A stretch of 22,088 bases of DNA from a virus. The position numbers and the translations under genes are program-made. Shown in pieces: positions 2,893 through 19,400 of the stretch (within the stretch, counting starts at the first letter, position 1; the number at the start of each line of letters is the position of its first letter). The stretch is from positions 1-22,088 of the IMG/VR virus record IMGVR_UViG_3300030110_003914, one strand, 5' to 3'. The notes beneath the pieces were generated by a model. That model worked only from the letters and a program-made list of their open reading frames with translations, ran no database searches and was not told where the DNA came from.

Positions 2893-3315
2893 ATGAGGTT
2901 GAGTGGATTCGTCACCGTAAATGGCTCAAAAGAGAGAATTGACTGGACAATTGATGGTAATTCTATCAATGAAGGCCCCGGTCTAAGCGCACATGGAATC
3001 ACCGTTGAGGGTGCTATCGTGGTCGCAGAACCAGATGTAGTGGAATACACAGATGGGTACGAGGACATGACAGTCACCGATCTCAAGGTGCAATGCACCC
3101 AAAGGGAGTTGCCAATCTATGGAAACAAGCAACAGTTGATTGATAGATTGAGGGGGTGGGATGCCAACAACGACCCAATTAGCGAGGTAGCAGTTGCTCC
3201 TCCTGTTGAAGAAGTGCCAGAGGAAGTGCCAGAAAATGAAGGGTTTGTAGCAGACCCGGAAACCGGAGGATGGGTCGCAGAAGGAGATGAATTGGATGGC
3301 GTTGAAGGCGAGTGA
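2893..3315 (+). CDS. Small acidic protein with SAP-type putative DNA-binding motif (140 aa)
   Basis: The central part (about residues 59-94) reads MTVTDLKVQCTQRELPIYGN then KQQLIDRLRGWD. This matches the SAP helix-extended-loop-helix pattern: a leucine-containing first helix, a Leu-Pro/Gly turn, Lys, then LIDRL in the second helix. SAP and the related HeH/LEM or Rho-N-like motifs bind nucleic acid and also occur in phage structural-region proteins. The N-terminus (1-50) is beta-like and the C-terminus (100-140) is acidic, with a Val-Pro-Glu-rich linker (EEVPEEVPENEG) and a WVAEGDELDGVEGE end. It sits between the tube and the chaperone gene and overlaps the latter by 20 nt. Possible roles are contact with DNA at the head-tail interface, binding nucleic acid during assembly, or a non-DNA protein contact. 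None is proven by the sequence. Confidence 0.7.
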   Translation: MRLSGFVTVNGSKERIDWTIDGNSINEGPGLSAHGITVEGAIVVAEPDVVEYTDGYEDMTVTDLKVQCTQRELPIYGNKQQLIDRLRGWDANNDPISEVAVAPPVEEVPEEVPENEGFVADPETGGWVAEGDELDGVEGE

Positions 3316-3655
3316 TTTTCTCGCGGGTAAGACCGCAGAGAGACATGAAGTCGAAACACCCGTGGGGAATCTCATAGTCTATGTCAAGCCAATGACATGG
3401 ATACAGCAGCAAGAAGCAATATCCAAGTTCGTTGATTTCGTCATAGAAGGCGACGACATGAGGCCGAGAATTGACTTTGGTGGCTATTGGCAGTATGTTC
3501 TACGGAATTGTGTCTCGGACACCGAACCGAAAATCTCCAAAAAAGAATTGATGCACTTGAGTCCAGAAGTCGGTGCGGCCATTGTTGATGTTCTACCCGG
3601 TATAGACTCCTTAGTGGCATCTATGACTGGCGGTGAGCCAAGCCCTTTGGAATAA
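3296..3655 (+). CDS. Tail assembly chaperone, short form (lambda gpG-like, 119 aa)
   Basis: Small soluble protein in the lambda G position: after the tube and immediately before the tape measure. It starts MALKASDFLAGKTAERHEVE, continues with a compact beta/helix part (TPVGNLIVYVKPMTWIQQQE) and ends GGEPSPLE. The ATG at 3296 is chosen because GGAGATGA at 3283-3290 lies 5 nt before it; the ATG at 3287 lies inside that site. The gene overlaps the end of the SAP-domain gene. The last codons contain the slippery heptamer CCCTTTG (3643-3649), four bases before the stop at 3653-3655, so most ribosomes should make this short form and some should shift into the next frame. Sequence similarity to known chaperones is weak; order plus the frameshift signal carry the call. 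Confidence 0.75.
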   Translation: MALKASDFLAGKTAERHEVETPVGNLIVYVKPMTWIQQQEAISKFVDFVIEGDDMRPRIDFGGYWQYVLRNCVSDTEPKISKKELMHLSPEVGAAIVDVLPGIDSLVASMTGGEPSPLE

Positions 3656-3695
3656 CCCACTCGGATCTTCGTTCATACATTACTTCGGGTGGGGT
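3643..3695 (+). promoter_or_regulatory. Programmed -1 ribosomal frameshift signal (CCCTTTG + stem-loop)
   Basis: The zero frame reads AGC CCT TTG GAA TAA, so C CCT TTG (3643-3649) is a canonical X XXY YYZ heptamer in register. After a 5-nt spacer (3650-3654) a stem can form. A3655-C3658 pair with G3692-T3695, and A3659-G3663 pair with C3686-T3690 (one T-G wobble), with a single bulged G3691. Two more inner pairs (G3664-T3685, A3665-T3684) are possible, giving up to 11 pairs around an 18-nt loop. The -1 frame is open from 3637 through 4017. Heptamer, spacing and structure together are the classical arrangement for tail chaperone genes. Pairing was worked out by hand; no folding energy was computed. 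Confidence 0.82.
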
Positions 3696-4017
3696 AATCA
3701 ACCCATTCACTCCAAAGCAACAAGCCGTGCTGTCATTCCATACGATGACCTTCGTCCTCGGTTCCCATTTCAACTGCCCTCCACACTCATGGGATGACCA
3801 ACCGATTGATCGAGTTTATCTCGATTATCTGCTTGTTCGGGTAAATCAGGAACAACAGACAGAGGAGATGAAGAAAGCAAGAGACAAAGCCGACCGTTAT
3901 AACGCGAGTGGAAACCAAAATAAGGGGATGCCTATACGGACAACAAGTGATAGTGCCAACCTTGACGATTTCTTTGAGAGATTCAACAAACAATTAGAGG
4001 AACAGGACGGCAATTAA
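3649..4017 (+). CDS. T region of tail assembly chaperone, made as G-T fusion by -1 frameshift
   Basis: Second reading frame, expected to be expressed as a fusion: 118 residues of the short chaperone followed by 122 residues from this frame, about 240 aa in all. It continues GITHSDLRSYITSGGVINPF, TPKQQAVLSF and HFNCPPHSWDDQPIDRVYLD. It ends in a charged helical stretch (EQQTEEMKKARDKADRY) and a tail with LDDFFERFNKQLEEQ. The frame has no ATG near its 5' end; the first usable starts are GTG 3727 and ATG 3745, neither with a Shine-Dalgarno site. The protein-like sequence also extends upstream of both, to the slippery site. In lambda, the T part of gpGT recruits tube subunits while the G part binds the tape measure. 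An independently started gene from 3727 is the weaker alternative. Confidence 0.78.
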   Translation, partial: GITHSDLRSYITSGGVINPFTPKQQAVLSFHTMTFVLGSHFNCPPHSWDDQPIDRVYLDYLLVRVNQEQQTEEMKKARDKADRYNASGNQNKGMPIRTTSDSANLDDFFERFNKQLEEQDGN

Positions 4018-4019
4018 TC

Positions 4020-5417
4020 ATGGGAGATAGCATAGTCGAAACGGAGAGGCAATTATTTGCTCTCGGCAAGTCTATGAAAGGCAATATTCCTGTCACTACC
4101 AAGAGTATTGCAGTAAATCTGACTCTTAACAAGGTTCTAGGGCCATTCTACAAATTGTATCGAAACCTGTCAGCCGCCGTCACCACTCTAGGGGGTGTCA
4201 TGAAGGCTGCATTGAATCCAATCAAGGCTGTTGGCTTGATATTCGGTGGGATGAGGGATAACATCTTCTTCCTGATCGGGATAATTGCCCTCGCAGCAGC
4301 GGGTTTCGTGGCCCTAGCGGGTGAGTTCGGGGGTGTGACTGGACTCGCTGATGGGTTCAAGGAGTCGTTGTTATCGTTGGGTATAACGTCGGATTCCATC
4401 AAAGAATCCTTCGATCTGTTTGTCGAGGGGCTGAAGATAGGCTTCGATGCTCTCGTCATGGCTTGGGGCGCAATTATCTCCAATATGTCCGAAACGGGAT
4501 TCATCGACTCTCTGATGACTGCCTTTGGAGGTCTAGGCACAGGCGTAAGCGCAATCTTTGCCTCCGTGAACGAGGCCTTTGCAATCCTCGGTATCGAAGG
4601 AGGCAACCTCGGTGAGACACTCACGAACATAATCAATGGGGTGTTCGCATTCCTCACGGCAAGTGGTTTCATTGAATACTTCAACGAGTTGATTGTGACT
4701 TTCGGAATGTTAGCCGAGACTGCGGGCATAGTCATAGGAGCAATCATAGTGCTGATTGCCAAAATCGTGAAGGAAGCAACCACATCGGGAACTATGTTGA
4801 ATACAATCGTGAAAGGCATTGGCACGGTCATTGGTGGCGTAATGAACGTCGTCTTTGGCATAGTAACCTTCGTTCTAAAAGCAATTCAATTTCAATTCGG
4901 GTTAATGCAAGCATTTGCCACGGGAGGCTTTAGTGGAGTAGCGGACTTCATAGGAGAAAAGTTTGGTCATATATATGACTCTGCTGTCGCTTTCAAGGAT
5001 GGAGTTGTCAAGGCCCTTGGTGGGATGTGGGACTTCTTGATGACTCCAATCGACTACATCCTAGAAAAGATTGATGAGTTGAAGAATATAGATTTGGGCA
5101 GTTTGGTTCCTGACATGGGAGATATAACAGGTGGTTTGGCTAGTCTGAACCCATTTGCATCAGGTGGTATTGCCTCTGGCCCTCAGTCGGGCTATCCGGT
5201 AGCACTACACGGAACAGAGGCTGTCGTCCCCCTACCAGATGGTAGGACGATACCCGTCACGATGCAAGGTGGCGGAGGTGGGGGTGACTTCACCGCCAAC
5301 ATCACCGTCAACGGCGGAGGATCGGATGCTAGTGCCATAGCGAAAGCCGTGGGTCAAGAGGTTCAGAGGGCATTCCGCTCCAGATCTAGGTCTGGTGGCT
5401 ATGGGAGGGGTGTCTGA
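4020..5417 (+). CDS. Tail tape measure protein (465 aa)
   Basis: Tape measure proteins set tail length, guide tube polymerisation and act in DNA delivery. This one has an N-terminal region with conserved-looking IAVNLTLNKVLGPFYKLYRN, then long helical, hydrophobic stretches at about 82-100 (NIFFLIGIIALAAAGFVALA), 236-250 and 267-288. Its C-terminus is the usual Gly-rich tail: FASGGIASGPQSGYPVALHG followed by TEAVVPLPDGRTIPV, then Gly-runs and an Arg/Ser-rich end. The GYPVALHGTEAVVPLP pattern is typical of the family. At 465 aa it is short; by the usual relation of about 0.15 nm per residue the tail would be no longer than about 70 nm. It starts 2 nt after the chaperone stop with only a distant AGGACGG, so it is probably translated by coupling. 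Its stop overlaps the next ATG by one base. Confidence 0.85.
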   Translation: MGDSIVETERQLFALGKSMKGNIPVTTKSIAVNLTLNKVLGPFYKLYRNLSAAVTTLGGVMKAALNPIKAVGLIFGGMRDNIFFLIGIIALAAAGFVALAGEFGGVTGLADGFKESLLSLGITSDSIKESFDLFVEGLKIGFDALVMAWGAIISNMSETGFIDSLMTAFGGLGTGVSAIFASVNEAFAILGIEGGNLGETLTNIINGVFAFLTASGFIEYFNELIVTFGMLAETAGIVIGAIIVLIAKIVKEATTSGTMLNTIVKGIGTVIGGVMNVVFGIVTFVLKAIQFQFGLMQAFATGGFSGVADFIGEKFGHIYDSAVAFKDGVVKALGGMWDFLMTPIDYILEKIDELKNIDLGSLVPDMGDITGGLASLNPFASGGIASGPQSGYPVALHGTEAVVPLPDGRTIPVTMQGGGGGGDFTANITVNGGGSDASAIAKAVGQEVQRAFRSRSRSGGYGRGV

Positions 5418-6646
5418 TGCCAAGGATACAGATGATTCACCGAGATAGCAGCGTCACCGAGTTGGACGCAGACAACGTGGGTTTCGACTTTACCAGAATG
5501 GTCACTAACTTTCCCATTGCCGTGATAAACACTCGCCTTGGCCTTGACTTGAACCAGACCTCGATAGGCATCACAGTCGATGGTATATTCACAGATGATG
5601 TCGAGGCGACCGGCGGCAATGGTGCGTCCATGACGATAGACACGTCACTCAATGGAAGCCAGTCGCTGGCTTCTACATGGTATGAGTTGTTCGCCAGTTG
5701 GAATGCCGTCAAGGCTGAGTTGGATGGTGTCAAGATAAGATTCCAGACAACGGGACAGATAAATGCGGGTCTGGGAGAGGATACCACTCTTGAATTGAAG
5801 AACGCTAGTGGTTCTTCGACTGTGGCGACCAATAGCATCGTCGTCATTGACATCTCTTCAACCACCACATCTGACAGTTTGGCTGACACTATTGTAAGCG
5901 GTATAAATGGGGCTTCAATTAAAATTAATACTGCTACGGTAGCGTGTTCTTCCGTCTTAACCGTCAGTCAGTCATCTGGACAGCATCAGACACTCTCCAT
6001 GGATGTCCAAAGCGGCTCAGGTTTCGACGGGGAGAAGATTACCATCAAGAATACCGTCGTCGGTTCCAATGGAGATCACATTACGACAGTATCCAAGGAC
6101 GATGCGGGTGCTACATGGACTAACCAGTTCCTTGTCACCAATATGACGGGGGGTTCTTCTAATCAGAAGAAAACCATGGAAGACAAGGTTCAGGATTTAC
6201 TGAATCTATCCAACATGAGTGCAGGTGGAGCATTGGTTTCGCCTAACGCTATTGCTGGTTCGGTCATAGACATACCAGATGGTGTTTCTTCTGTCGATGC
6301 TTCTCGCTTCTTGCGAATAGATGGCATGAAAACCGTGCAGAAATACGTCGTAGGGCTTAGGATACCATATGAGTCATTAGCGTCTTCAAATTCTGGTAAC
6401 AAGGTCTTGAGGCAATACCTCATACCATCAGGAGTAGGTACGAACTTTTCAGCAGTAGATAACGACAAAGCCTTCGATCCGACTACAACGGTGAACAATG
6501 AGATTATCAGGCCCAACCCCTATCTTGAGCAAGGAGTGGCAATACCCGTTGTTTTGAGAAAATTCAATCCATCTTACAACGCTGGTGATGGTTATTGGAC
6601 TTATCAAATGGTATTTGAAGCGTGTGAGCAACTGGTGGGAATATGA
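5417..6646 (+). CDS. Tail-tip / baseplate protein, Dit position (409 aa)
   Basis: First gene after the tape measure, where siphoviruses usually place the distal tail protein. The start overlaps the tape measure stop (TGATG, 5415-5419) and has GGAGGGGTG at 5404-5412, 4 nt before the ATG. Residues about 20-62 (including NFPIAVINTRLGLDLNQTSI and GITVDGIFTDD) and the C-terminal part from about 283 (SVIDIPDGVSSVDASRFLRI ... RPNPYLEQGVAIPVVLRKF) may form one tip domain. They flank a Ser/Thr-rich beta segment at about 105-250. That segment has the style of small repeated domains in marine viral structural proteins (SLADTIVSGINGASIKI followed by VLTVSQSSGQHQ). No membrane segment or enzyme motif is visible. 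Family membership was not recognised; the role comes from position and beta-rich composition. Confidence 0.6.
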   Translation: MPRIQMIHRDSSVTELDADNVGFDFTRMVTNFPIAVINTRLGLDLNQTSIGITVDGIFTDDVEATGGNGASMTIDTSLNGSQSLASTWYELFASWNAVKAELDGVKIRFQTTGQINAGLGEDTTLELKNASGSSTVATNSIVVIDISSTTTSDSLADTIVSGINGASIKINTATVACSSVLTVSQSSGQHQTLSMDVQSGSGFDGEKITIKNTVVGSNGDHITTVSKDDAGATWTNQFLVTNMTGGSSNQKKTMEDKVQDLLNLSNMSAGGALVSPNAIAGSVIDIPDGVSSVDASRFLRIDGMKTVQKYVVGLRIPYESLASSNSGNKVLRQYLIPSGVGTNFSAVDNDKAFDPTTTVNNEIIRPNPYLEQGVAIPVVLRKFNPSYNAGDGYWTYQMVFEACEQLVGI

Positions 6647-6647
6647 C

Positions 6648-9600
6648 ATGGGTGTTGTAAGATTCCATGGCAAGGCCCTTCGTTTCAATGGGTTCACAGA
6701 TGGGCTAGTAGTTCCCACGGGCAAATATCGAGAATCTGGTGTCGATTTAAGGGCAAATGAGTTTGCGGCCACCATCAAGGCTACCAAGAGCCACGCGACC
6801 AAGATAGGAAGGATGCATAGAGACTCAAAATCTCACCCTCTCAACTCATTACGAGGCTCATTCACCATTGATGCGTTTTTCGTCCCAGACTATGGAGGAG
6901 TCATAGTCCACAAGCCCGATGCATTCACTCTGAAATATGGAAAACCACATTCAGAGGGTAAAATTGTCTTTGAGGTTCATACTGAAGACAGACCCTATGT
7001 CACCTCGACCTCATTCAACGCACCTGTCAAGACGAATAGCAACTCTGGGGTGTATTCCTCATCATCCAATGCACACAGGCCACAGGACATGACTCTAGGC
7101 GCACAGGGCCTAGTCCTAGTGACGGCGCAATACACCCAGAAGGAGATACGGGTCTTCGTCAATGGAGATATAGTCGCTGAGATGAATCTGGGTGGCGACG
7201 GCGGCATCATGAAAGAGACATCCTCAGACCTATTCATCGGTGGACAGGGCGGGGAGTTCCGTGGCCTGATAGAGAGCGTGAGGATTTGTCAGGGCATCCA
7301 CCCCCCCTCCCTATCACCCCTCACCAAGACAGACAACACCTTCGGACTCTGGACTTTTGACGACGAACAGGACGTACCAGAAATCTATTTCTTCGACCAT
7401 GCTCGTTCTGGTTCCCCCCAACAAGGCAGAGATGGCCCAGACACTCACGATGGTCTGCTAGACATACCCATGGTTGGTATTGGCTATGATTTCAATACAA
7501 CACATTTCAAGATTAGAGATTACCCTGCGAATCCGGGGGGTGCAACTGATAGGTACACCGCTCTTGAGAAACTGGCAGCCTTGACACAGGGGATAGAACT
7601 AGAGGAAGTAAAAGATCAGTCTTGGTATTCATCCACATTAGACTTGACTGACCAAACGTACTTTACAGGAGTCAATCAGACCGTTCTGAACGCAGTAATC
7701 AATCATTCTTGTACGAATCCAAATACAGGAGTCATAACCCCTCCAGATTCTCAGAAAGTTAGATTTGGAGATAACTCAGTCCTAGCCACATCATCTACTT
7801 CTACTCTAAACCCATCCATAAACAGGGTAGAAAGAGTCCGTATAACAGGGCTTGACTTTGCTAACAATAGGATAAACTGCACCTCTGTGATTTTAGCGAA
7901 CGATGCTGCAAACGGGACGATAGACAACTTTCCCGAAACACAGGGGCATCTTTTTGCCCATACAAACAACACTCCAGTATGGTTCACACTAGGGTCTGCT
8001 GACTTACTCATTGATCCGGGCAATAATGAAACAAGTGGCTCGGTCAGCAACCAGAGAAAGAGAAGAAAGGATACATTTACTCTGGCTCAATTCGTTCAAG
8101 GACAGCGATTTACCGATATGTCTGGCTATTCCAATGATGCTTACTTTGTTTCTTTGAAAAGCAGAAGCACAGCCTCGACAGACGCAAACACGTTGTATGA
8201 GCCAAGCACCACATATCCAGCCATGGGTGCTGCTACCGCATATTCTATGTTTGAAGGGGACTTCTTTCTTCGGATGCTTCCACCGCCCGATCAACAAGTG
8301 GTAAAACAAACCGTTCAAGGGATAGCAAACACCTTCAAGTATGTCTCTGATGAAGTTTCTACACAATCATTGGTTAGTGAGAACCAGAGAGTCAGAGTTA
8401 CTGAAACTGTGTATCATGGGGAAATCTCCAAGGTAATCAACAAAGCCAAGACCGTCGCTGGTACTGATTCGGCAAGTAGCAGTAACAATACATTCAATCG
8501 GATAGTTGTGGAAAGTGGAATTGGTTATTATGACAACAGCCTCAGTCAAAATCTCTATGCCTCAACAAGAGATGAAATTGTCGCTATTGCGATTTCAGAT
8601 CCAAAACCATTCATGTTGAAGGGCCTTGATACTGAGCATACTGCTTCTTTCTCCAATGGCGTACCAACAAATGATGCATATGTAAGACACCTTACGCCAG
8701 AAAAGAAGACCAGAGTCGCTTCAATAGAGTCACCTACCGTATTAGTCTCAGCAGGAGGGCCAAAGCAGATACTCATTCACTATGATGCCATTGATTTGAC
8801 AGGAGAGGTGGTTGGTGGAACAAGTCTAGCGAGTGGAGATGTTAGTGCAAAGTTCCGGGCCGATCATGCAACGGGCAATGCGGCCTATCTGGTCGTGCGT
8901 AAGACCATCCCCTGTGGTAGTGCCGTCTTTGGTGGTCGAACAGTCTCAGATTGGCTTAGACGGCCCTATTCAGGCAACAATACAAGCCTCACTAACATCC
9001 TCTTGACTGTCACGGCTCCCGGTGGACTCGTTAGCCTACCCACATCTACCTTCAATGACAAGCCGGCTTCCCATATCTTGTCTTCCAACCCCACAGGCGA
9101 CATAACTCCCTCTCCATTCATCAACATCGAGGATACGGTCTATGGGGTTGGGACAGAAGTCCAAGGATATGGTCGTCCCAAGGCAGTTGCATCAATAAAC
9201 ACCCCTGATGATACGAGCAACTCTGATTATCATGTTTTCTACATCAATTCGGCTAGTTTGAATAATCACAAAGATCACACTTCCTCTAAACTGACACCCT
9301 CTACATTGAGGAGAAGTAATCTAGCAGGGTTTGACGTTATTGACAATGAATTGACTGGCAATGAGAATCTGGTTCTCGTTCATCCTGCCAATAGGACACG
9401 AAACTCCATGCTTGAAGATGTTTCAACAGCATCAAACTCTCCTCTGGACACCTCATTAGCAACCTTGGAGAAGACCTTGATGAGGGGAAGGATAGAGGAG
9501 ATTACACCAACCGCAGGTCAAGAAGGAGAGTCAAAGACAGTCATTAATGGTCGTTCGGTTTTGATGGACATACTAGACCATCGTTCACAGAGGGATTTCA

Positions 9601-12600
9601 ATCTAGGGCAAGGCTCTCCCGTGAAGGAGATAGGGGATTTGGGGACGCCCACCGTTTCAATGACTCTTGGAGGTCTGGGACAAGGTGGCGTGGACATACA
9701 GCCAGTATATACTGAGCATCCATTCCTACCCGGTTGGAAAGACAAGATAGTAGGTTCGGGAAATGCATCGGTTCGTAATGACAAGCAGACATCCACATAC
9801 TATGCATCCACAAGGGCCGTGACTGAATTACCATTGTTCCCTTCTATGTTTTTCGATGTGGCATCACTCATCTCTGCTGATAACGATGCGAGAACCCCTT
9901 TGCCCGCAGACAAGAATTTCAAGATGACTGTGGATTGTACCATGGCTACAAACAGACCAGAGATGAGGGATAACGAATCTAGGTTCGCTGTTGATTGGGG
10001 ACAGAGAAGTCCTATTTCTTCTTTTGAGGTGACAGATCAACTAGAGGCATGGGCAGAAGGAAACGGGCGATGGTTAATTAGATGTCAACGCCCATCTGTC
10101 CAAGCAGTAGTGACCTCGTACAATAGTGGCACACTCAATGTGGACGATGCCTCTGCCTTTTTGGACTCGACAGGAGAAAGAGGGCTTCAAGCAAACTGTG
10201 CAGCCAATTTCTTCGTGACCATTGGAGAGGGGGTCTTGAACGACGGTTATGGAATCATGGCAAGAGCCGCGTATAACAACGGCACATCCCTCACTATAAC
10301 AACGTCCCAGACATGGAATCCTCTGAATACAACAAACAACGAAAGCAGCAATCTCGGCAACATAGATGCAGGTATGACTGTCACCCTCGGAGGCTACATA
10401 ATCCTAGATGGTGCTACCTCTGTTTCTAACGACACCCAAGACTACATCATCTCCATCGAAGACATATCAAACTTCACAGCGCGTACCCCTAACCTTCTGG
10501 CCGATGAGATTGGCACGGCGGTGAGGACGGTAATTGGGCTGAATGCAAATGCCGTCCATGCAGACCCCAATAACTCATCTCGCTACTTCATCCTAGACGG
10601 CCCTAACATGGAAGCCTTTGAGTGGGATCCGAACGAGGACAACGAATCGGCAAATGACAGGCAATCCCTGCACCCTGTTATCTGTCAAACGAGTTACCTG
10701 TCATTGAAAGGCAAGAAATCAGATGGAACCGCATTGGAATATGTGCGTCCGCTTGAGATTGATTTCAACAACGTCGCTAATGTCAAGCCAGATTTCAATC
10801 TCTGCGTTGAGGAGGTCGTTAGGAGAATCAACATGGCAGGTCATCCCCAAGCAAAGAACAGCGCAGGAGCGAGTGCATTCAACCCACCCGCCATCTTCCC
10901 CACGTCCGCATCCAACAACGACACAGGCACACATATGGGATACGTCCGAGCATTCATTGGCACAGAGGTTGAAAGCAGAGATGGAGAAGCGGGTATTTCC
11001 ATCGTGATACACAGCACGGTTCCGGGGGCATCTGGTCGAAACTTCAATGTGCGACTTAGCAATAAAACACCGTACACCTACAAACCATCTCAAGTAGTAG
11101 GTTATGGGGGGCTTCTATCGAGCAATAGCAGGTTGTACCAACCAAACCTGATACCATCACCTATGCCAATAGGTGCAGATGGTGAGACTTTTGTGCCTAT
11201 TTCGATATTCAGAGGCGCACCCTCTGGTTCGACCTTGGACTCTACTAATGCCCTTCGTTCATACAATGGATTAGGTAGTTCATTCAAAGTGACTACTGTT
11301 GCCGCTCCTGCTCAAGAGACTCTTGAAGGGGTGGCATCGACAGTAGAGTCAAGTGGTGTTCTATTCAATGAGTCGAACATAAGTGGCAATGCACAGACAA
11401 CATTAACTGTTGATACTGTCGATGCAACGACTAAGTTTAGAGCAGGAGATACGTTATTTGACGATACAGGTGCATCAATAGGAACTATCAGCGCGGTGAC
11501 AGCGACGCTCATAACACTCACAGCCAACAATTCTGTTGCTGTTAATAACAATGAAAATCTAATGAGATCTATACCTATGACTGACCCACGGCCTACGGAA
11601 CTCGTTAGTCAGACGAGTGTCTCTCATCTCGCTATTAGTACGAGTGTCGAAGACTACCTCAAGAGATTGACCAGAGCAACCGGCTCATTGGGCAAGGGCA
11701 TCTTGCGTGTCGGCACTCTCATTGCCGACTTTGAATTTATTGATCAGCAGAAAGTAGTGGCAGGTAATAACGGAAGCGTCATGACAAATTGCTTTTTCAT
11801 TCGTAACATCACTCCTCGTGATACTATGATTGATTTCTTAGAGGCGTTCTTTGATAGTGATGGAGCATCCATCGGTGGTATAGAGGTCGAGTTGATTTAT
11901 CCAAGGACTGATGCAGAGGGAATTGTGTATTTCGGAGGAGGTCACACAGGAGTCACATTTGACATAAGCGATGGGACGGCTAACGATTACAGCGACGACT
12001 ATCCTCACCATTACTCCAAAGGCCCTACTGGTTTCGCAGGACATCAGAACCTGCATGAGGTCAGTACGGCATCTGCGGTCTTGGACTTCACTAATATCAC
12101 GAACAATGACACAATCAATGACAACACCATGCAAGGGGTTCACCATAGGCTTGGAACGGATGGGGTGAATCTCCAGAGATGCCTTCTCTATGCTAGGCTC
12201 AATGATGGCACTATCACAGATGGGACTTACAACCAGAGTCCAGTCATAACCGAGGCATTGTATGGTTCAAAACTCCGATTGACTAGGGGGTATGGAATAT
12301 TGACTCCCGATGGCAATTACTCTTCTGGAACGAGCATGGATGTTACAATGACCGGCTCAACTGATATTTCTGACATAACAATTGGTAGTGGTAGCAACCT
12401 AAGTGGTGCAAGGAGTGTGGTTCACAATGACGATGCATTCACATTTACTGGTCAAACAGCAACAGGAGGGGCAGATGCAACCCTTAGTGGTGTCGTTGGA
12501 GCATCAGCAGTTAATGATGGCGTTGAGATGACATTTACCAGAGGGAGTACCGATGTCGCAACGATGACTTCCCTGAATGGCCCTGCTTATTCCGTCGATA

Positions 12601-13490
12601 CTACATCAAAGGGGTACAAATTCAGAGGGGGCCAAAGCATTGCGACTCACCATTGGACTGGTTCCGCGACTAACCTTGAGTATGGGCCGATGTCCGATTT
12701 CGACATAACACAGGACTGGTCAATCAGCGCGTGGTTCAAACCGAGCGACACTTCATTCGCCAATAACAATGAGATTTGCTCTGGCCCTATAATTACGGGC
12801 AGGGATAAGAACGACAGGAATTGGGGGCTTTATCTATTCGGCAGTAGGATTTCCAATTCCGATCAGACCATCTCATTCGCCATGGCATACCACGATGGAT
12901 CAAATCACAAGATAGCAAGGAACAAGGTAGCCGATGGGGGAATCAAAATAACCGACAACGCATGGACTAACATCATAGTGACCAAGAGTGGGACTACCAT
13001 CTCAATGAGAGCGGGAAACTCGGAGCGTCTTAGAGGATACAATTACAGCCTTAGTGCTAATCAAGATACTACTAGCATGATTAATTTGGGTTTGGGTACG
13101 TTCGGCTCAGGCAATGCTAGAAGCCTAGAGACAACCACGGCCAATCACAACAACACGGCTACCTTCCCTCAATTTCAAGGAGGGGTTGTGAAAACAGGAA
13201 TGTGCTTCATCGGCGTTTCGACCATCAAGAATCTTGAGACTGTCCATTCCTCTGGCGATCCAGATGCCCTCTTCACGATACACTACACCGATGTCACGGG
13301 TTCGACACAGGGCAACCACGCAGGGGTTTGTGGCACATTGGATAGTCATGAGTCATACGCGGGTGGCGGGCTTGCCGCGACGGAGAACGTGTATTTCTGG
13401 AACGGTTCGCTATCGGAGATAGGCGTCTTCAACTATGCCCTTTCTGAGAGCGAGTGCGAGGAGATATACGCGGCAAGGGGGGTGTGGTGA
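6648..13490 (+). CDS. Giant tail-tip/fibre protein with N- and C-terminal LamG-like domains (about 2,280 aa)
   Basis: Start ATG 6648 is chosen over the in-frame 6585: GGTGGGA (6634-6640) lies 7 nt upstream, it follows the previous stop by one base, and the protein opens MGVVRFHGKALRFNGF. Residues about 65-245 form a LamG/concanavalin-like domain (SLRGSFTIDAFFVPD, EIRVFVNGDIVAEMNLGG, FGLWTFDDEQD). A second lies at about 1985-2280 (DWSISAWFKPSD, DNAWTNIIVTKSGTTISM, GSLSEIGVFNYALSESE). About 942-988 resembles the beta domain of tail hub proteins (GRIEEITPTAGQEGESKTVI, NGRSVLMDILDHRS). Around 1160 and 1585-1640 are small beta motifs (TLNVDDASAFLDSTG; FRAGDTLFDDTGASIGTIS). LamG domains commonly bind glycans or proteins, so host attachment is likely. 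No signal peptide, membrane span or enzyme motif is seen. It ends in TGATG with the next gene. Confidence 0.75.
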   Translation: MGVVRFHGKALRFNGFTDGLVVPTGKYRESGVDLRANEFAATIKATKSHATKIGRMHRDSKSHPLNSLRGSFTIDAFFVPDYGGVIVHKPDAFTLKYGKPHSEGKIVFEVHTEDRPYVTSTSFNAPVKTNSNSGVYSSSSNAHRPQDMTLGAQGLVLVTAQYTQKEIRVFVNGDIVAEMNLGGDGGIMKETSSDLFIGGQGGEFRGLIESVRICQGIHPPSLSPLTKTDNTFGLWTFDDEQDVPEIYFFDHARSGSPQQGRDGPDTHDGLLDIPMVGIGYDFNTTHFKIRDYPANPGGATDRYTALEKLAALTQGIELEEVKDQSWYSSTLDLTDQTYFTGVNQTVLNAVINHSCTNPNTGVITPPDSQKVRFGDNSVLATSSTSTLNPSINRVERVRITGLDFANNRINCTSVILANDAANGTIDNFPETQGHLFAHTNNTPVWFTLGSADLLIDPGNNETSGSVSNQRKRRKDTFTLAQFVQGQRFTDMSGYSNDAYFVSLKSRSTASTDANTLYEPSTTYPAMGAATAYSMFEGDFFLRMLPPPDQQVVKQTVQGIANTFKYVSDEVSTQSLVSENQRVRVTETVYHGEISKVINKAKTVAGTDSASSSNNTFNRIVVESGIGYYDNSLSQNLYASTRDEIVAIAISDPKPFMLKGLDTEHTASFSNGVPTNDAYVRHLTPEKKTRVASIESPTVLVSAGGPKQILIHYDAIDLTGEVVGGTSLASGDVSAKFRADHATGNAAYLVVRKTIPCGSAVFGGRTVSDWLRRPYSGNNTSLTNILLTVTAPGGLVSLPTSTFNDKPASHILSSNPTGDITPSPFINIEDTVYGVGTEVQGYGRPKAVASINTPDDTSNSDYHVFYINSASLNNHKDHTSSKLTPSTLRRSNLAGFDVIDNELTGNENLVLVHPANRTRNSMLEDVSTASNSPLDTSLATLEKTLMRGRIEEITPTAGQEGESKTVINGRSVLMDILDHRSQRDFNLGQGSPVKEIGDLGTPTVSMTLGGLGQGGVDIQPVYTEHPFLPGWKDKIVGSGNASVRNDKQTSTYYASTRAVTELPLFPSMFFDVASLISADNDARTPLPADKNFKMTVDCTMATNRPEMRDNESRFAVDWGQRSPISSFEVTDQLEAWAEGNGRWLIRCQRPSVQAVVTSYNSGTLNVDDASAFLDSTGERGLQANCAANFFVTIGEGVLNDGYGIMARAAYNNGTSLTITTSQTWNPLNTTNNESSNLGNIDAGMTVTLGGYIILDGATSVSNDTQDYIISIEDISNFTARTPNLLADEIGTAVRTVIGLNANAVHADPNNSSRYFILDGPNMEAFEWDPNEDNESANDRQSLHPVICQTSYLSLKGKKSDGTALEYVRPLEIDFNNVANVKPDFNLCVEEVVRRINMAGHPQAKNSAGASAFNPPAIFPTSASNNDTGTHMGYVRAFIGTEVESRDGEAGISIVIHSTVPGASGRNFNVRLSNKTPYTYKPSQVVGYGGLLSSNSRLYQPNLIPSPMPIGADGETFVPISIFRGAPSGSTLDSTNALRSYNGLGSSFKVTTVAAPAQETLEGVASTVESSGVLFNESNISGNAQTTLTVDTVDATTKFRAGDTLFDDTGASIGTISAVTATLITLTANNSVAVNNNENLMRSIPMTDPRPTELVSQTSVSHLAISTSVEDYLKRLTRATGSLGKGILRVGTLIADFEFIDQQKVVAGNNGSVMTNCFFIRNITPRDTMIDFLEAFFDSDGASIGGIEVELIYPRTDAEGIVYFGGGHTGVTFDISDGTANDYSDDYPHHYSKGPTGFAGHQNLHEVSTASAVLDFTNITNNDTINDNTMQGVHHRLGTDGVNLQRCLLYARLNDGTITDGTYNQSPVITEALYGSKLRLTRGYGILTPDGNYSSGTSMDVTMTGSTDISDITIGSGSNLSGARSVVHNDDAFTFTGQTATGGADATLSGVVGASAVNDGVEMTFTRGSTDVATMTSLNGPAYSVDTTSKGYKFRGGQSIATHHWTGSATNLEYGPMSDFDITQDWSISAWFKPSDTSFANNNEICSGPIITGRDKNDRNWGLYLFGSRISNSDQTISFAMAYHDGSNHKIARNKVADGGIKITDNAWTNIIVTKSGTTISMRAGNSERLRGYNYSLSANQDTTSMINLGLGTFGSGNARSLETTTANHNNTATFPQFQGGVVKTGMCFIGVSTIKNLETVHSSGDPDALFTIHYTDVTGSTQGNHAGVCGTLDSHESYAGGGLAATENVYFWNGSLSEIGVFNYALSESECEEIYAARGVW

Positions 13491-16400
13491 TGACGGTGAA
13501 CCAGAAGCAACTCTATCCCGCCAAGGTCGTCCCCATGGCATCTGCTAGTGGATACCCCGCAAGCGGCTTCTTCGCCATGCACATCACCTACCCCGATACG
13601 GAGTATGATGATGCCGTGACCGATTGGGAGTACGGCACGAACACCAACGACCAATGGAAGCAGGGACTCACAGTCATCGTCCGCACCCCCATCGCCACCG
13701 CCTCCGCCCCTGCGGAGGACACAAACGTAATCGTAGTGGATCTGAAGCAAGCCGCTACTGATGATACGAACAGCAAGACCTACAATCTAGGGACGGAGGA
13801 GGCCACTAGACTCATAGCAGCCAAGATAAACAGCCGCAGGGTCAAGCAGCAGGGAGAACACAGCCAGACTCGTTACCTGAGAGCGAGATACGTCAGGATG
13901 TCAGGTAAGCCCTCCATAACGGGAGATGCTACACTAGCCAAGTCTAACACCGTTCTCCGTGTCAAACTGAATGGTGGTTATCGCAACGGTTTCCCCTCAG
14001 ATATGCCACAAAGCGGCACACTCACCTACAACGATGGCGATCACACCAATCTCTCGATAACCTATACGGGAGTGTCTGCTTTCAGGAGAGGGGGAGAATA
14101 CTACAACGGTAGCCCCAAGGATCAAAGGACATATGTCGATTTTACAGTATCAGGTGGAAACCTCTCATCACAAATAACTCAAGTCTCGACTTCTGGCCCT
14201 GAAGTAATAACGTCAGCAACAGTATCAATACCCGGAGAACCCGCAAAGCACACAATGGTTCTGACTTGGGAAAACATCACACCGAACGCTGCTGGAGGCT
14301 ATTGGGCAACAGCGAACGGAGGCCCCATAATCCACGGTCTAGGTCAGGCCGTGCCTACTTGGTATCTAGCCGCGAAGCCCATGGACGGAGGCAACATGGG
14401 GCTACCGGCCCTCAATTACGATTCCAGAGGCTCAACCGCCTCGGCCCACAGTACGGGACACGGGTATGTCAGATTCAGCATAGAGGGACTGAACTCGTGC
14501 AACCTCCCCGACATACCCCCACCCGACTACACAGTCACCGAGCCATCCCTATACCATATTACGAAAGTCGAAACCGATACTACGGGATCTAACAATATCA
14601 AACTAGCAAATATGGAATATGGGACGGACTTCCCTGCCTCTTCAGGAGATATGTTCCACCTAAAGAGCGGATATAGGGCGACCGCCACGAGCAATTCCAA
14701 CAATATGCTCTCGGTTTCTCAGGATAATCTGACGAATATCACATATGGGACAGCGTTTGAGGCCAAGGGAATTGATGGTGATGGCTCTAAGAACGTACCC
14801 CGTCCTATATTCTCAGCCAAGTCCACCAATACCTCACGAGTGACGGGATTGCAGATTAGCAATGAGGAACGAGTCTTTGAGGATATAGAAACCGTTGACG
14901 ACGCGGGCAACAAACTGACTCTTACTGGTGGTTCTCCATTAGGAGTGATAATTCGGGACTATTCCGTCCAGAACACCAGAACAGACCCGATAACAGGGGA
15001 AGAGGTCACGGGGCCATCCACCACAGACGGCAAATTGACCCCGAATATGCAGATTCAACTGCCAGACCCCTCAGAGATACCCGGAGAGGTGTTCGTTAGG
15101 AGCGGCCACGACCGTGTTCAGGCGTGGTCTAACATGACATGGGGGTTGGGGGGGCTGACGGCCCCAGACCCTCGCAAACCGGGCGTAGCAGAGGCATCTG
15201 GTGGTGCGTCGCAGTTCGACACCCACGACAGGATGCTAATCTTCCACGTTCAGAGGCTCCTGCATCCCGATATGGCGACCAAACAGGGTCTGACCCCCCA
15301 CACCACCGCCGGAGCCGTTCCAAGCGGCTCAACACGCTTATTCGCAGCGCATAGGATAACCGATCACGCAGAGAGAGGTTCTCTCTTGACTCAAACAGAC
15401 CAAACCAGCGTAGCAGGGACTTTCACCACCTACACCGGCTATTCCTACCCCCACCACCGCGTCCGCTTCGCCCGCCAAGGTCACTCCTTCGTGACTCCAA
15501 TGACCCATAGAGGCACTCCTGCTGCTATGAGGAGGCAACTACACAGAAGCCACGGCTCGGCCTACACTCTACTCTTTGAGGCAGAATCTGAGCATAGGCA
15601 TCATGGATTCGGTTCGGCCAAAGACTCAAACTCAACCACCATCTTTGAGTTAGACAGCCTAGACACCAAGAACACTAGCAACTACAAAGCAAACGGTTCA
15701 TTCGCTTCTGATGGCCTTCCTTTGACAGAGGTTAGTGGTTTCAGGCTACCAGACATCAAGCAATCGGCTCATTCCGGTGTGACTCCAAGGACAGATTACG
15801 ACTATCTGGTGGCTCCGGGCCAAGAGCATACGACCACGAAGGGAGCAGGACACCTAATCAGGCGAGCCGCGCCGAGTCAAGACGCTACTTCGACCACCAC
15901 TTCAGGCCCAACTAGGCTCACTTTTGCCTCTGCTTTGTCCGGTGGGAGCCGCTATAACACGTCTAGTGAAATTATACTCAACGGGTTTTTGCTAGGAGAC
16001 TACACTCTCTCCGCAGGACGCCCAATTGCCCCTGTTATTGACGCTGGATCGAGTGAATATTTCTCCTTGGGGTTAGAGGAAGGCGTCTTAGTCCCTCGTT
16101 CTGGAACAGAACTCGCAACAGTCCCCCCTCTCCTGTGTCACGACCCAGAATACCTCAACATGGCGGCACGAACGGCCAACCCTGCCAACGATAACGCCGG
16201 TATAAACACCGATTTTGGTGATTTTGCACTACTTGACAAGAGTAACACCGGGACAGGGTGTGTTCCAGACGCATTCCTATGCCATTGGCTTGCCGAATAC
16301 AGCCATCCAGCACTCTTCGGAACCAGTCGAGAACACTACATGACCTTCAGATACAGGGAGGCAGGGATGCCTCGCTCCCTCAACTACCCTCCTACGAGGA

Positions 16401-19400
16401 GTCTCTACCTCCGCAACCACTCCAACCCCACCACTACTGCACAGGCAGAGGATGCTCTGCCCTTTGAGAGGCTATATGTCATACAATGGTTGCAGAACTT
16501 CGGATACAATGCATTGAACGCTTCGGGGCATAAGGATGTGACCGGATTGCGCTCTGCTAACGCTGTCCTCATGGGACATACTACACATAGGGAAGCACAG
16601 GGTACTCTGAGACTCACAAAGGAGTATGATCGTGTGCGCTATACTCGTGGAGAGGGTATAGGTGATGGGATACAGCCGGAGAAAACATCTGCTACCATAT
16701 CATATGATACTGATTCCGATACTATATCTTTCACAGAATATGAGGTGGTTGTCGATAATATGGTCGCATATGATTACAGTAGGAGACTACCTGTGAGGGC
16801 ATGGGGTTTCAGAACTGGTTCAGATGCTCTAAATATGCTATCAGGTGATCCCACAGAATCTGTGACAAATCTCCAACCACTATTCAACAGCGCACGTTTC
16901 GATGGTGGTGTCCACGATTCGATGAATAAAATCCCCAACGCAACCACGCACGGTTCTTCTTGGGTGTTCCCCTCTGACTACAATGGGGCAGAGAGGACTA
17001 TGCCTATCGGTGTAGTGACAACATCTCACACCGCAGAGTCCACTCCATTCTCAAGCGTAATCAGAAGAAGCAACACGAAACCCTTAGCCTCTGAACAGCC
17101 GATTGGGATTGGTTTGACCCTTGGTATCGAGTCCGCCGGTCTGGTCAAACCTACTTCTCTCCCCGCCGGAGTTTGGCAACCAAAGACCGATCCGAATAAG
17201 GGTACAAACGAGCCATTGAAAGCCATTCCAATGAACAAAGGCTCCGATCCTTTCATTGATTTGACACAATACACAGGCTCCAACACCTATGCTCAATCTA
17301 CATCACCCTCTGCTGTTAGTTCTACTCAATACGGTGTAAGCGGAGGTTTCCATCACTTGAGAGGCAACGCCTTACACACGAATCCGTCTGCTATTGACCA
17401 TTCTAACACATCCAACGTCCATTATCCGACCACCGGATGGGGGATTGGAACGCACACTAACGCTACAATCAACTCTATCCTAGCCATACCCCTCTCAGAG
17501 ATAAGCGACCACAGACAAGTGCAATCACGCACAGAACCACGTTTAGGATTCGTTATACAGACCGAAAACGAACGACAGGACAACCAGAACATAGAGTATC
17601 TGATAACATCGACAAAGGCTGCATCCCTACATAGCGATTTAATTGTAGGTCAGCATTTCCCCGTCTTACCCTCATGGGTTTCAAACTCCAAACTTACTAC
17701 ACATAACATGACCGTAAATGCTGGAAGCCCAATCAGTCAGACAATTAATGACCCTTATGCATTACCCAAATGGAGTCCTGATACTAAGGATGACAAGGGC
17801 GATGGAGGAGCAGCGGTCACAGCCCTATCTATTTCTAACGCAGGATCAGGCTATGCATTCCCAAGCGGGACACTAGGCTTCTCAGGCGGCGGCGGAGGGA
17901 CAGGTTTCTCAGGGACATACACCACTTCTACGACAGTTGCAGATGGAAATCCAGCAAGCGGCGTAGGACAATATAGCGGAGGCAATACGCAGACGTTCAC
18001 AGGGGTCACGATTTCAGGAGGTGGTGGATCAGGCGCGGCGGCATCATACGTCTTGTCTAACGATGGCAAGCCAATCAGCAACACTATCTCAATTGGCGAT
18101 GGAGGGTCGGGTTTTGACTCAAGCACAGTCAGCCTTACGATAGGCTCACCAAATGCGAGTCACAATTCAACTCAGGCCACCGCTACTGCAACGATTGGAT
18201 TCGGCGTGTCAATCGCTAACGCAAGTGCCGAGGAACATGAGATAGATCTAACCGGAACAAACGTGAATACTCTGACTTTGGATGGCAACCACTCAACTGT
18301 GTCAGGTTTGGGGGCGTTTGAACTTTCGACAAATTTGTTCGTCAATGAGAACATAAGCGGATGGCCTTCATCGGGAACGCTATACCTGCAAGACGGCACT
18401 TCTACTTGTGTTGTCAATTACTCTAGCAAGAATACAACCGGAAGCGTAGGAGCGCACTTCTTTGTGGTGAGTTCTTCCAGTCATATCCGTGCTTTCACAT
18501 TCTCAAGTGGTGCAACCGTCTTCGATTTGAATCCAAATTCACAAGCGAAAAATACCAGCACCCTTGTCATGACAGTCAGTCAGACTAGCCCTGCCGCACA
18601 GACACCTGCGACCGTCAAGATAGGTTATGAAAGATTGGATGGCAAATACTACATTCGTTCAGGAGCGAATGGCTACAACATAACCAATGTAGGTGTAGGG
18701 TTCACATCAGGAGGGACAAAAACAGTATCGTTGAAGTTAAACGGTGAAACAAATTATGCTCTTGGTGGTCCGCTTACCTTTGCTTCTGCATCAGGTGTCA
18801 TAGCAGACATAAGTGCGGCGACAACCAATGGCACGATAATATCAATCACAGTCAATAATCAAGGAGATGGATACACCTCCGCACCATCTGTCTCTGCTTC
18901 AGGAGGGTCAGGAGAATCGCTGACGGCCTCGTTAGCAAGCCATACTGCCACGAGGACACTAACAGACATCAACGTCACCAATGGTGGGTCGGGCTACACA
19001 TCCGTGCCAACTATGACCGTGCCTACCACGCATCTGACGGGTTCGGCAAATGCGGTGACGGCAGTATTGGGTTCGACAGGGCCGTTGGTATCGGTGAGCA
19101 TAAGCGCAGGTGGTTCGGGCTACACCACCGCACCGACCGTAACGATGAGTGGTAGTGGATCGAGTGGAGTGGTGTTGGCAACAGTCGCTTTACCCAACAA
19201 CCCACCAGTCCTCACAACACCAGACAGCCATGGCATGGACTATTGGGCGGTGCGAGGGTGCGGGGATCTTCCACCGTGGGGTGGGACGTACATCTTGAGG
19301 AAGACGTATCTGAATCGCACAGAGGAAGGGACTCTGACTACTGACATATACGGGACAGACGGGAATGCTACTACATCCAACCAGCGACGCAAGTCCATTG

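Follow-up and report, generated by a model that had tools for sequence, protein, structure and literature searches.

How is the second of two overlapping reading frames expressed in the tail gene cluster of an uncultured virus? The window, by which we mean the whole stretch of DNA analyzed here, is a 22-kb fragment of 22,088 bases (IMG/VR virus record IMGVR_UViG_3300030110_003914) in which a 0-frame open reading frame (ORF), G (positions 3296 to 3655, plus strand), is overlapped at its 3′ end by a −1 frame, T. Several scenarios could account for this layout. Ribosomes may slip backward by one base at a dedicated signal; T may be a separate gene with its own initiation; the frames may be joined by slippage of the RNA polymerase; or the split may reflect an error or a decayed gene. 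On the evidence of sequence comparisons, we put at roughly 95% the probability that a programmed −1 ribosomal frameshift lets a single message yield two tail assembly chaperones in a marine archaeal tailed virus of magrovirus-like type. The earlier note on this DNA had proposed a complete −1 frameshift signal for a tail chaperone G/GT pair, and the tests of the heptamer, the frame, the stem, and G described below support that proposal.

G probably starts at ATG 3296 (119 amino acids, beginning with MALK, which is conserved in relatives) rather than at ATG 3287 (122 amino acids), and its 3′ end reads AGC CCT TTG GAA TAA. The slippery heptamer C CCT TTG, of the X XXY YYZ type, lies in the G register at 3643 to 3649 on the plus strand, where the earlier note had placed it at the end of the upstream frame. 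It ends three bases before the 0-frame stop (TAA, 3653 to 3655, plus strand), which is one codon past the heptamer. Upstream, the T frame is shut by a TGA at 3634 to 3636 (plus strand), 6 nt ahead of the heptamer; the frame is open from 3637 through 4017, and its earliest ATG, GTG, or TTG is the GTG at 3727, in line with the claim that this frame reads as plausible protein ahead of any good start. Read only after the shift, the T domain would span 3649 to 4017 on the plus strand (122 amino acids; first codon GGA at 3649 to 3651), giving a predicted fusion of about 240 amino acids with the junction ...SPL-GITHSD.... This single sequence is not decisive, because 0.63 chance occurrences of CCCTTTGG are expected in the window and the 71-nt fold of the site has a z score of only −0.9, ordinary for its composition. 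A second copy of CCCTTTGG, on the minus strand at 3099 to 3106, runs antisense to an ORF and was taken as chance. The window gave no matches in Rfam or tRNA scans.

Relatives were gathered with a G profile and with peptide patterns taken well away from the heptamer, so that the search was not biased toward loci carrying the signal. The G-only search recovered 69 loci, and in all 69 an X XXY YYZ heptamer stands exactly 10 nt ahead of the stop codon of G, together with a −1 frame that stays open past that stop. Conservation in relatives, which had been suggested as a check on the signal, is therefore present in every relative found. The heptamer is CCCTTTG in 68 loci and CCCTTTA in the most divergent one (L182). 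These G/T relatives were found solely among uncultured virus contigs. Removal of sequences at least 95% identical over positions −150 to +240 left a non-redundant set of 51, among which G amino acid identity ranges from 31 to 96%.

We counted changes in this set on a G+T tree with a length of 14.7 substitutions per site. The heptamer opens with a C that occupies the wobble position of a variable codon (AGC, GGC, GAC, GCC, TCC, AAC, CGC, and ACC); the two codon bases ahead of it underwent at least 20 changes, and the C itself none. Other G wobble positions in the last 46 codons underwent a mean of 21.4 changes (minimum, 16), and C occupies the wobble position for the same amino acids elsewhere in G in only 15 to 42% of cases. 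Within CCCTTTGG, bases 1 to 6 and 8 show no change and base 7 shows one. An invariant first C would be expected of tandem slippage, because the Pro-tRNA would have to re-pair with CCC. Coding in T alone does not demand the first codon of the heptamer, since T begins at GGA after the shift. The G stop is likewise at an identical position in all 51 sequences (TAA in 44, TGA in 5, and TAG in 2), and the one-codon distance between heptamer and stop is rigid despite the use of three stop codons.

Is the product of this overlap a tail assembly chaperone? Judged by profile and by predicted fold, G belongs with this family. Of 13 aligned G homologues, 6 match phrog_25860 (“tail assembly chaperone”), with a best E value of 4e-4. 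In BFVD, the structure predicted for G by AlphaFold2 (pLDDT, 86.6) matches by fold a tail assembly chaperone from Haloarcula hispanica tailed virus 2 (E value, 1.8e-5) and a tail chaperone from a Bacillus phage (E value, 5e-4); searches of the PDB with G, by sequence and by fold, gave no match. The T model (pLDDT, 81.8) is all-helical and without a significant fold match, and T has no recognizable family. Pfam returned nothing above the cut-off for either protein, and a search of a collection of 50,697 phage records gave no homologues of G or T; of two scans of genome contigs with T, the first gave none and the second gave two stretches in bacterial contigs that were short and spurious. A real −1 overlap serving some role other than tail-length G/GT chaperoning would be compatible with a T of no recognizable family and with the empty PDB search for G. 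Yet the phrog_25860 matches, the fold matches to tail assembly chaperones (one of them from an archaeal virus), the adjoining tape measure gene, and synteny with the halovirus HCTV-5 leave such a role improbable.

The neighboring genes fit a tail module. The tape measure protein (4020 to 5417, plus strand; 465 amino acids) matches PHROG tape measure families with E values of 1e-8 to 1e-5, so the pair does adjoin the tape measure gene in the lambda-like manner that had been described. Upstream on the plus strand are a tail tube protein (Phage_tube_2, Pfam PF18906; 683 to 2854; E value, 1e-9) and, between it and G, a SAP-domain protein (Pfam PF02037; 2893 to 3315; E value, 1.5e-9). SAP domains usually bind nucleic acid, and the 3′ end of this gene overlaps the start of G. 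A partial ORF at 3 to 329 has a weak Phage_tail_APC/tail fiber assembly match, which is unusual so far upstream in a tail module. Past the tail genes lie two giant ORFs, at 6585 to 13490 (2301 amino acids, with a Laminin_G_3 lectin-like domain near the C terminus) and at 13454 to 21619 (2721 amino acids, no Pfam match); both are candidates for host-binding or tail-tip proteins. One relative, L196 (IMGVR_UViG_3300030095_002421), has G and T 100% identical to those of the window and a tape measure protein only 77% identical, and the tape measure protein of another, L195, is 92% identical to that of the window. The comparison of the window with L196 looks like a modular exchange with its boundary just past T.

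If frameshifting is the route into T, the frame should be coding before any start codon. Between the G stop and the usual starts, T-frame changes at codon positions 1, 2, and 3 number 846, 565, and 1,653, an excess at third positions and thus a codon-like periodicity of the kind proposed as a check on the −1 frame. The T protein is conserved among 50 aligned relatives; L182 is weakly alike, with 16% identity. No ATG, GTG, or TTG occurs in the T frame between the upstream stop and the heptamer in any of the 51 sequences, nor is there a conserved position for an ATG or GTG downstream, so the check for an own start of the second frame also favors the shift. The T-frame stop ahead of the heptamer directly adjoins CCC in five relatives (L025, L170, L173, L176, and L182), and in these T can therefore be entered only within CCCTTTRNNN, a stretch of about 10 nt.

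These observations bear directly on the idea that T is a separate gene, started independently or through reinitiation after termination at the stop of G, with the heptamer being incidental. A GTG or TTG does overlap the G stop in 2 of the 51 relatives, and in several an ATG or GTG lies 24 to 48 nt into T. However, the overlapping codon is ATA, TTA, GTA, or CTA in 46 of 51, none of them a normal start, and CTG in 3; the ATG and GTG positions are unconserved and lie past conserved T residues; and neither the invariant heptamer nor the constraint on the wobble base at its first position would be explained. We therefore consider a separate T gene very improbable. The T codon over the G stop is always NTA or NTG, with ATA in 34 of 51.

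Downstream of the heptamer, the RNA of the window is predicted to fold into a stem with its 5′ arm at 3656 to 3665 and its 3′ arm at 3684 to 3693 (plus strand; z score of −3.2 for a 46-nt window). Folding of 3640 to 3710 gives a minimum-energy structure of −16 kcal/mol in which a 10-bp helix, free of bulges and including two G-U pairs, lies 6 nt (GAAUAA) from the heptamer. The earlier note was thus right about a stem, which it had drawn with 9 to 11 bp, a bulge, and a 5-nt spacer; the bulge and the spacer length did not hold. In a first set of 34 relatives, 46-nt windows starting 6 nt after the heptamer have a mean z score of −3.08, and the values at 64 other positions over 650 nt of the same sequences range from −1.05 to +0.48. 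As far as sequence comparison goes, the signal is beyond chance, given its identical position in every relative found and this sharp folding minimum.

Across all 51 non-redundant relatives, the mean z score weakens to −2.04 because there is little structure in L182 and in the clade L145-L178. Folding supports the stem in the window and in most clades; in L145-L178 and L182 it is weak or undetectable, and the stem is therefore not a universal part of the signal. The clade L145-L178 keeps the heptamer, and a short CGAGGA/TCCTCG hairpin within its T codons may replace the stem. The position of the 5′ arm is fixed, and the distance to the 3′ arm differs between clades; an attempt to fit every relative to one column-by-column stem model was abandoned, as the 3′ arm falls at different columns in each clade. 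In 15 relatives sharing one stem register, 84% of cells pair, versus at most 65% when the arms are slid, a percentage favored by the choice of this subset after the folds had been viewed. The compensatory changes that had been called for are present in this register-matched subset, to which the covariation count is restricted: 4 of 8 stem pairs show two-sided changes, a number reached in 0 of 500 shuffles.

A Shine-Dalgarno (SD)-like element, GGCGGTGA, at 3629 to 3636 (plus strand) is a candidate upstream stimulator of the shift. GGTG is found at −11 in 28 of the 51 relatives, and an SD sub-match of at least 5 nt occurs in 28 of 51, versus about 10% of background windows. Such an element perhaps stimulates the shift, although its conservation is confounded with that of a Gly-Gly-(Glu) peptide encoded by the same bases.

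A −1 fusion would likewise be produced by transcriptional slippage. Known sites of transcriptional slippage are long homopolymer runs. CCCTTT offers runs of only three, and neither the selection on codon register, with the heptamer in G phase and the stop one codon on, nor the maintenance of an RNA stem at ribosomal spacing agrees with this explanation, which we regard as scarcely credible. Any single metagenomic contig could hold a sequencing or assembly error, or a gene decayed and split by a frameshift mutation, but two contigs from other metagenomes share both frames and the heptamer, and many metagenomes contribute to the 51 non-redundant sequences in which the same layout recurs, which excludes the sequencing error that the earlier note had raised against its own reading and makes error or decay the least probable explanation of all.

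Programmed ribosomal frameshifting would proceed as follows. Most ribosomes would pass C CCU UUG and end at the UAA one codon on, releasing G. A minority would pause at the stem starting 6 nt downstream, perhaps assisted by the upstream SD-like GGCGGUGA, and slip back by one base, with the Pro-tRNA moving from CCU to CCC and the Leu-tRNA from UUG to UUU. Reading would resume at GGA in the −1 frame, yielding a G-T fusion (...S-P-L-G-I-T...). By analogy with lambda, G would form a coat on the tape measure protein, and tail tube subunits would be recruited by the T domain; given such roles, the efficiency of the shift would set the ratio of G to GT. Lambda-type slippery sites end in G. It counts against this mechanism, however, that with G in the Z position UUG in the A site would leave a wobble mismatch after the slip, and Z has been given as “any base but G” (PMC8211752). 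The heptamer and the stop may also act together: CCCUUUGGNN-stop could be a fixed module in which the stop one codon past the heptamer is stimulatory, with shifting coupled to slow archaeal termination and substituting for the stem in the stem-less clade. We hold this extension to be doubtful.

Which hosts do these viruses infect? In a tblastn search of the 50,697 phage records, the tail tube protein matched only Druskaviridae (HCTV-5 and HVTV-1/2). A homologue of the HCTV-5 major capsid protein (MCP) is encoded in the records of 12 of 17 relatives (33 to 37% identity); no MCP gene was recognized in the 22-kb window, and the five closest records had no MCP match. A Cpn60/TCP1 chaperonin is encoded in 11 of 17 relatives, and all three that were examined scored as thermosomes of archaeal type; when compared with the phage collection, the thermosome found only distant chaperonins. 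A PolB exonuclease domain (1 of 17) and the PCNA C-domain (0 of 17) are uninformative as host markers. Taken at the level of these homologies, the tail tube, MCP, and thermosome evidence provides good support for archaeal hosts for the group, in keeping with the earlier suggestion of a possibly archaeal virus. Magrovirales, whose hosts are Poseidoniales, have genomes of about 90 to 110 kb that encode a family B polymerase along with replication genes of archaeal type. The records of our relatives reach 108 kb, and no named magroviruses with these tail proteins were found in the phage collection. Most likely, the hosts are Poseidoniales and the viruses are magrovirus-like.

The lambda G/GT heptamer is G GGA AAG. 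The same heptamer, verified in register, serves the G/GT pair of HCTV-5 (Halovirus, Druskaviridae; genes 128/129), which is annotated as a joined −1 frameshift. HCTV-5 is an archaeal tailed virus and has the order tail tube, G/GT, tape measure; its tail tube and major capsid proteins are homologous to those of the window's virus group, and a profile comparison of its G with that of the group gives 84% probability over 108 columns. In contrast to the window, HCTV-5 has G GGA AAG instead of C CCU UUG, 27 nt rather than 3 nt from heptamer to G stop, and tail tube and G genes with no SAP gene in between. The arrangement in phage lambda (Xu, Hendrix and Duda) is the same: a −1 X XXY YYZ site close to where G ends, with the tail tube gene on one side and the tape measure gene on the other, and a GT fusion (PMC5009743). 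Lambda differs in its bacterial host, and we found no sequence match to it. The Hardycor1 halovirus also has archaeal tail chaperones before the tape measure gene with a predicted −1 frameshift (HrrHc1_110/115), but at G GGA AAT and as a single genome prediction (PMC7911831). Outside tail genes, a heptamer and stem with a −1 shift were demonstrated experimentally on the archaeal ribosome for fucA1 of Saccharolobus solfataricus, a cellular gene with A AAA AAT and an unrelated protein (PMC8211752). The CP/RdRp site of Giardiavirus (CCCUUUA) shares the C CCU UUA heptamer type and a proposed −1 shift; however, this is a eukaryotic double-stranded RNA virus, and the mechanism has since been questioned (PMC8230311).

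Tail chaperone frameshifting had already been reported in HVTV-1, HCTV-1/2/5, and Hardycor1 (PMC5009743, PMC8211752, PMC7911831); therefore, the phenomenon itself is not new. A 2021 review counted one demonstrated archaeal −1 frameshift and a handful of predicted virus cases (PMC8211752). We did not find CCCUUUG/CCCTTTG in tail genes, or frameshifting in magroviruses, in the literature searched, an absence that is not proof. The locus is thus a new and very well supported case of the known lambda/HCTV-5 G-GT type, set apart by its heptamer and by the unusual rigidity of its geometry.

For gene annotation, the finding corrects a call that would otherwise leave T about 80 nt too short, or an orphan, across the whole group. 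It also provides a deep comparative case, with 51 non-redundant viral sequences from what appear to be marine archaeal viruses, an invariant site, and a covarying stem. The natural variants within this set (UUG versus UUA, stem versus no stem, and three stop codons) may serve to probe the requirements of the archaeal ribosome for a −1 shift.
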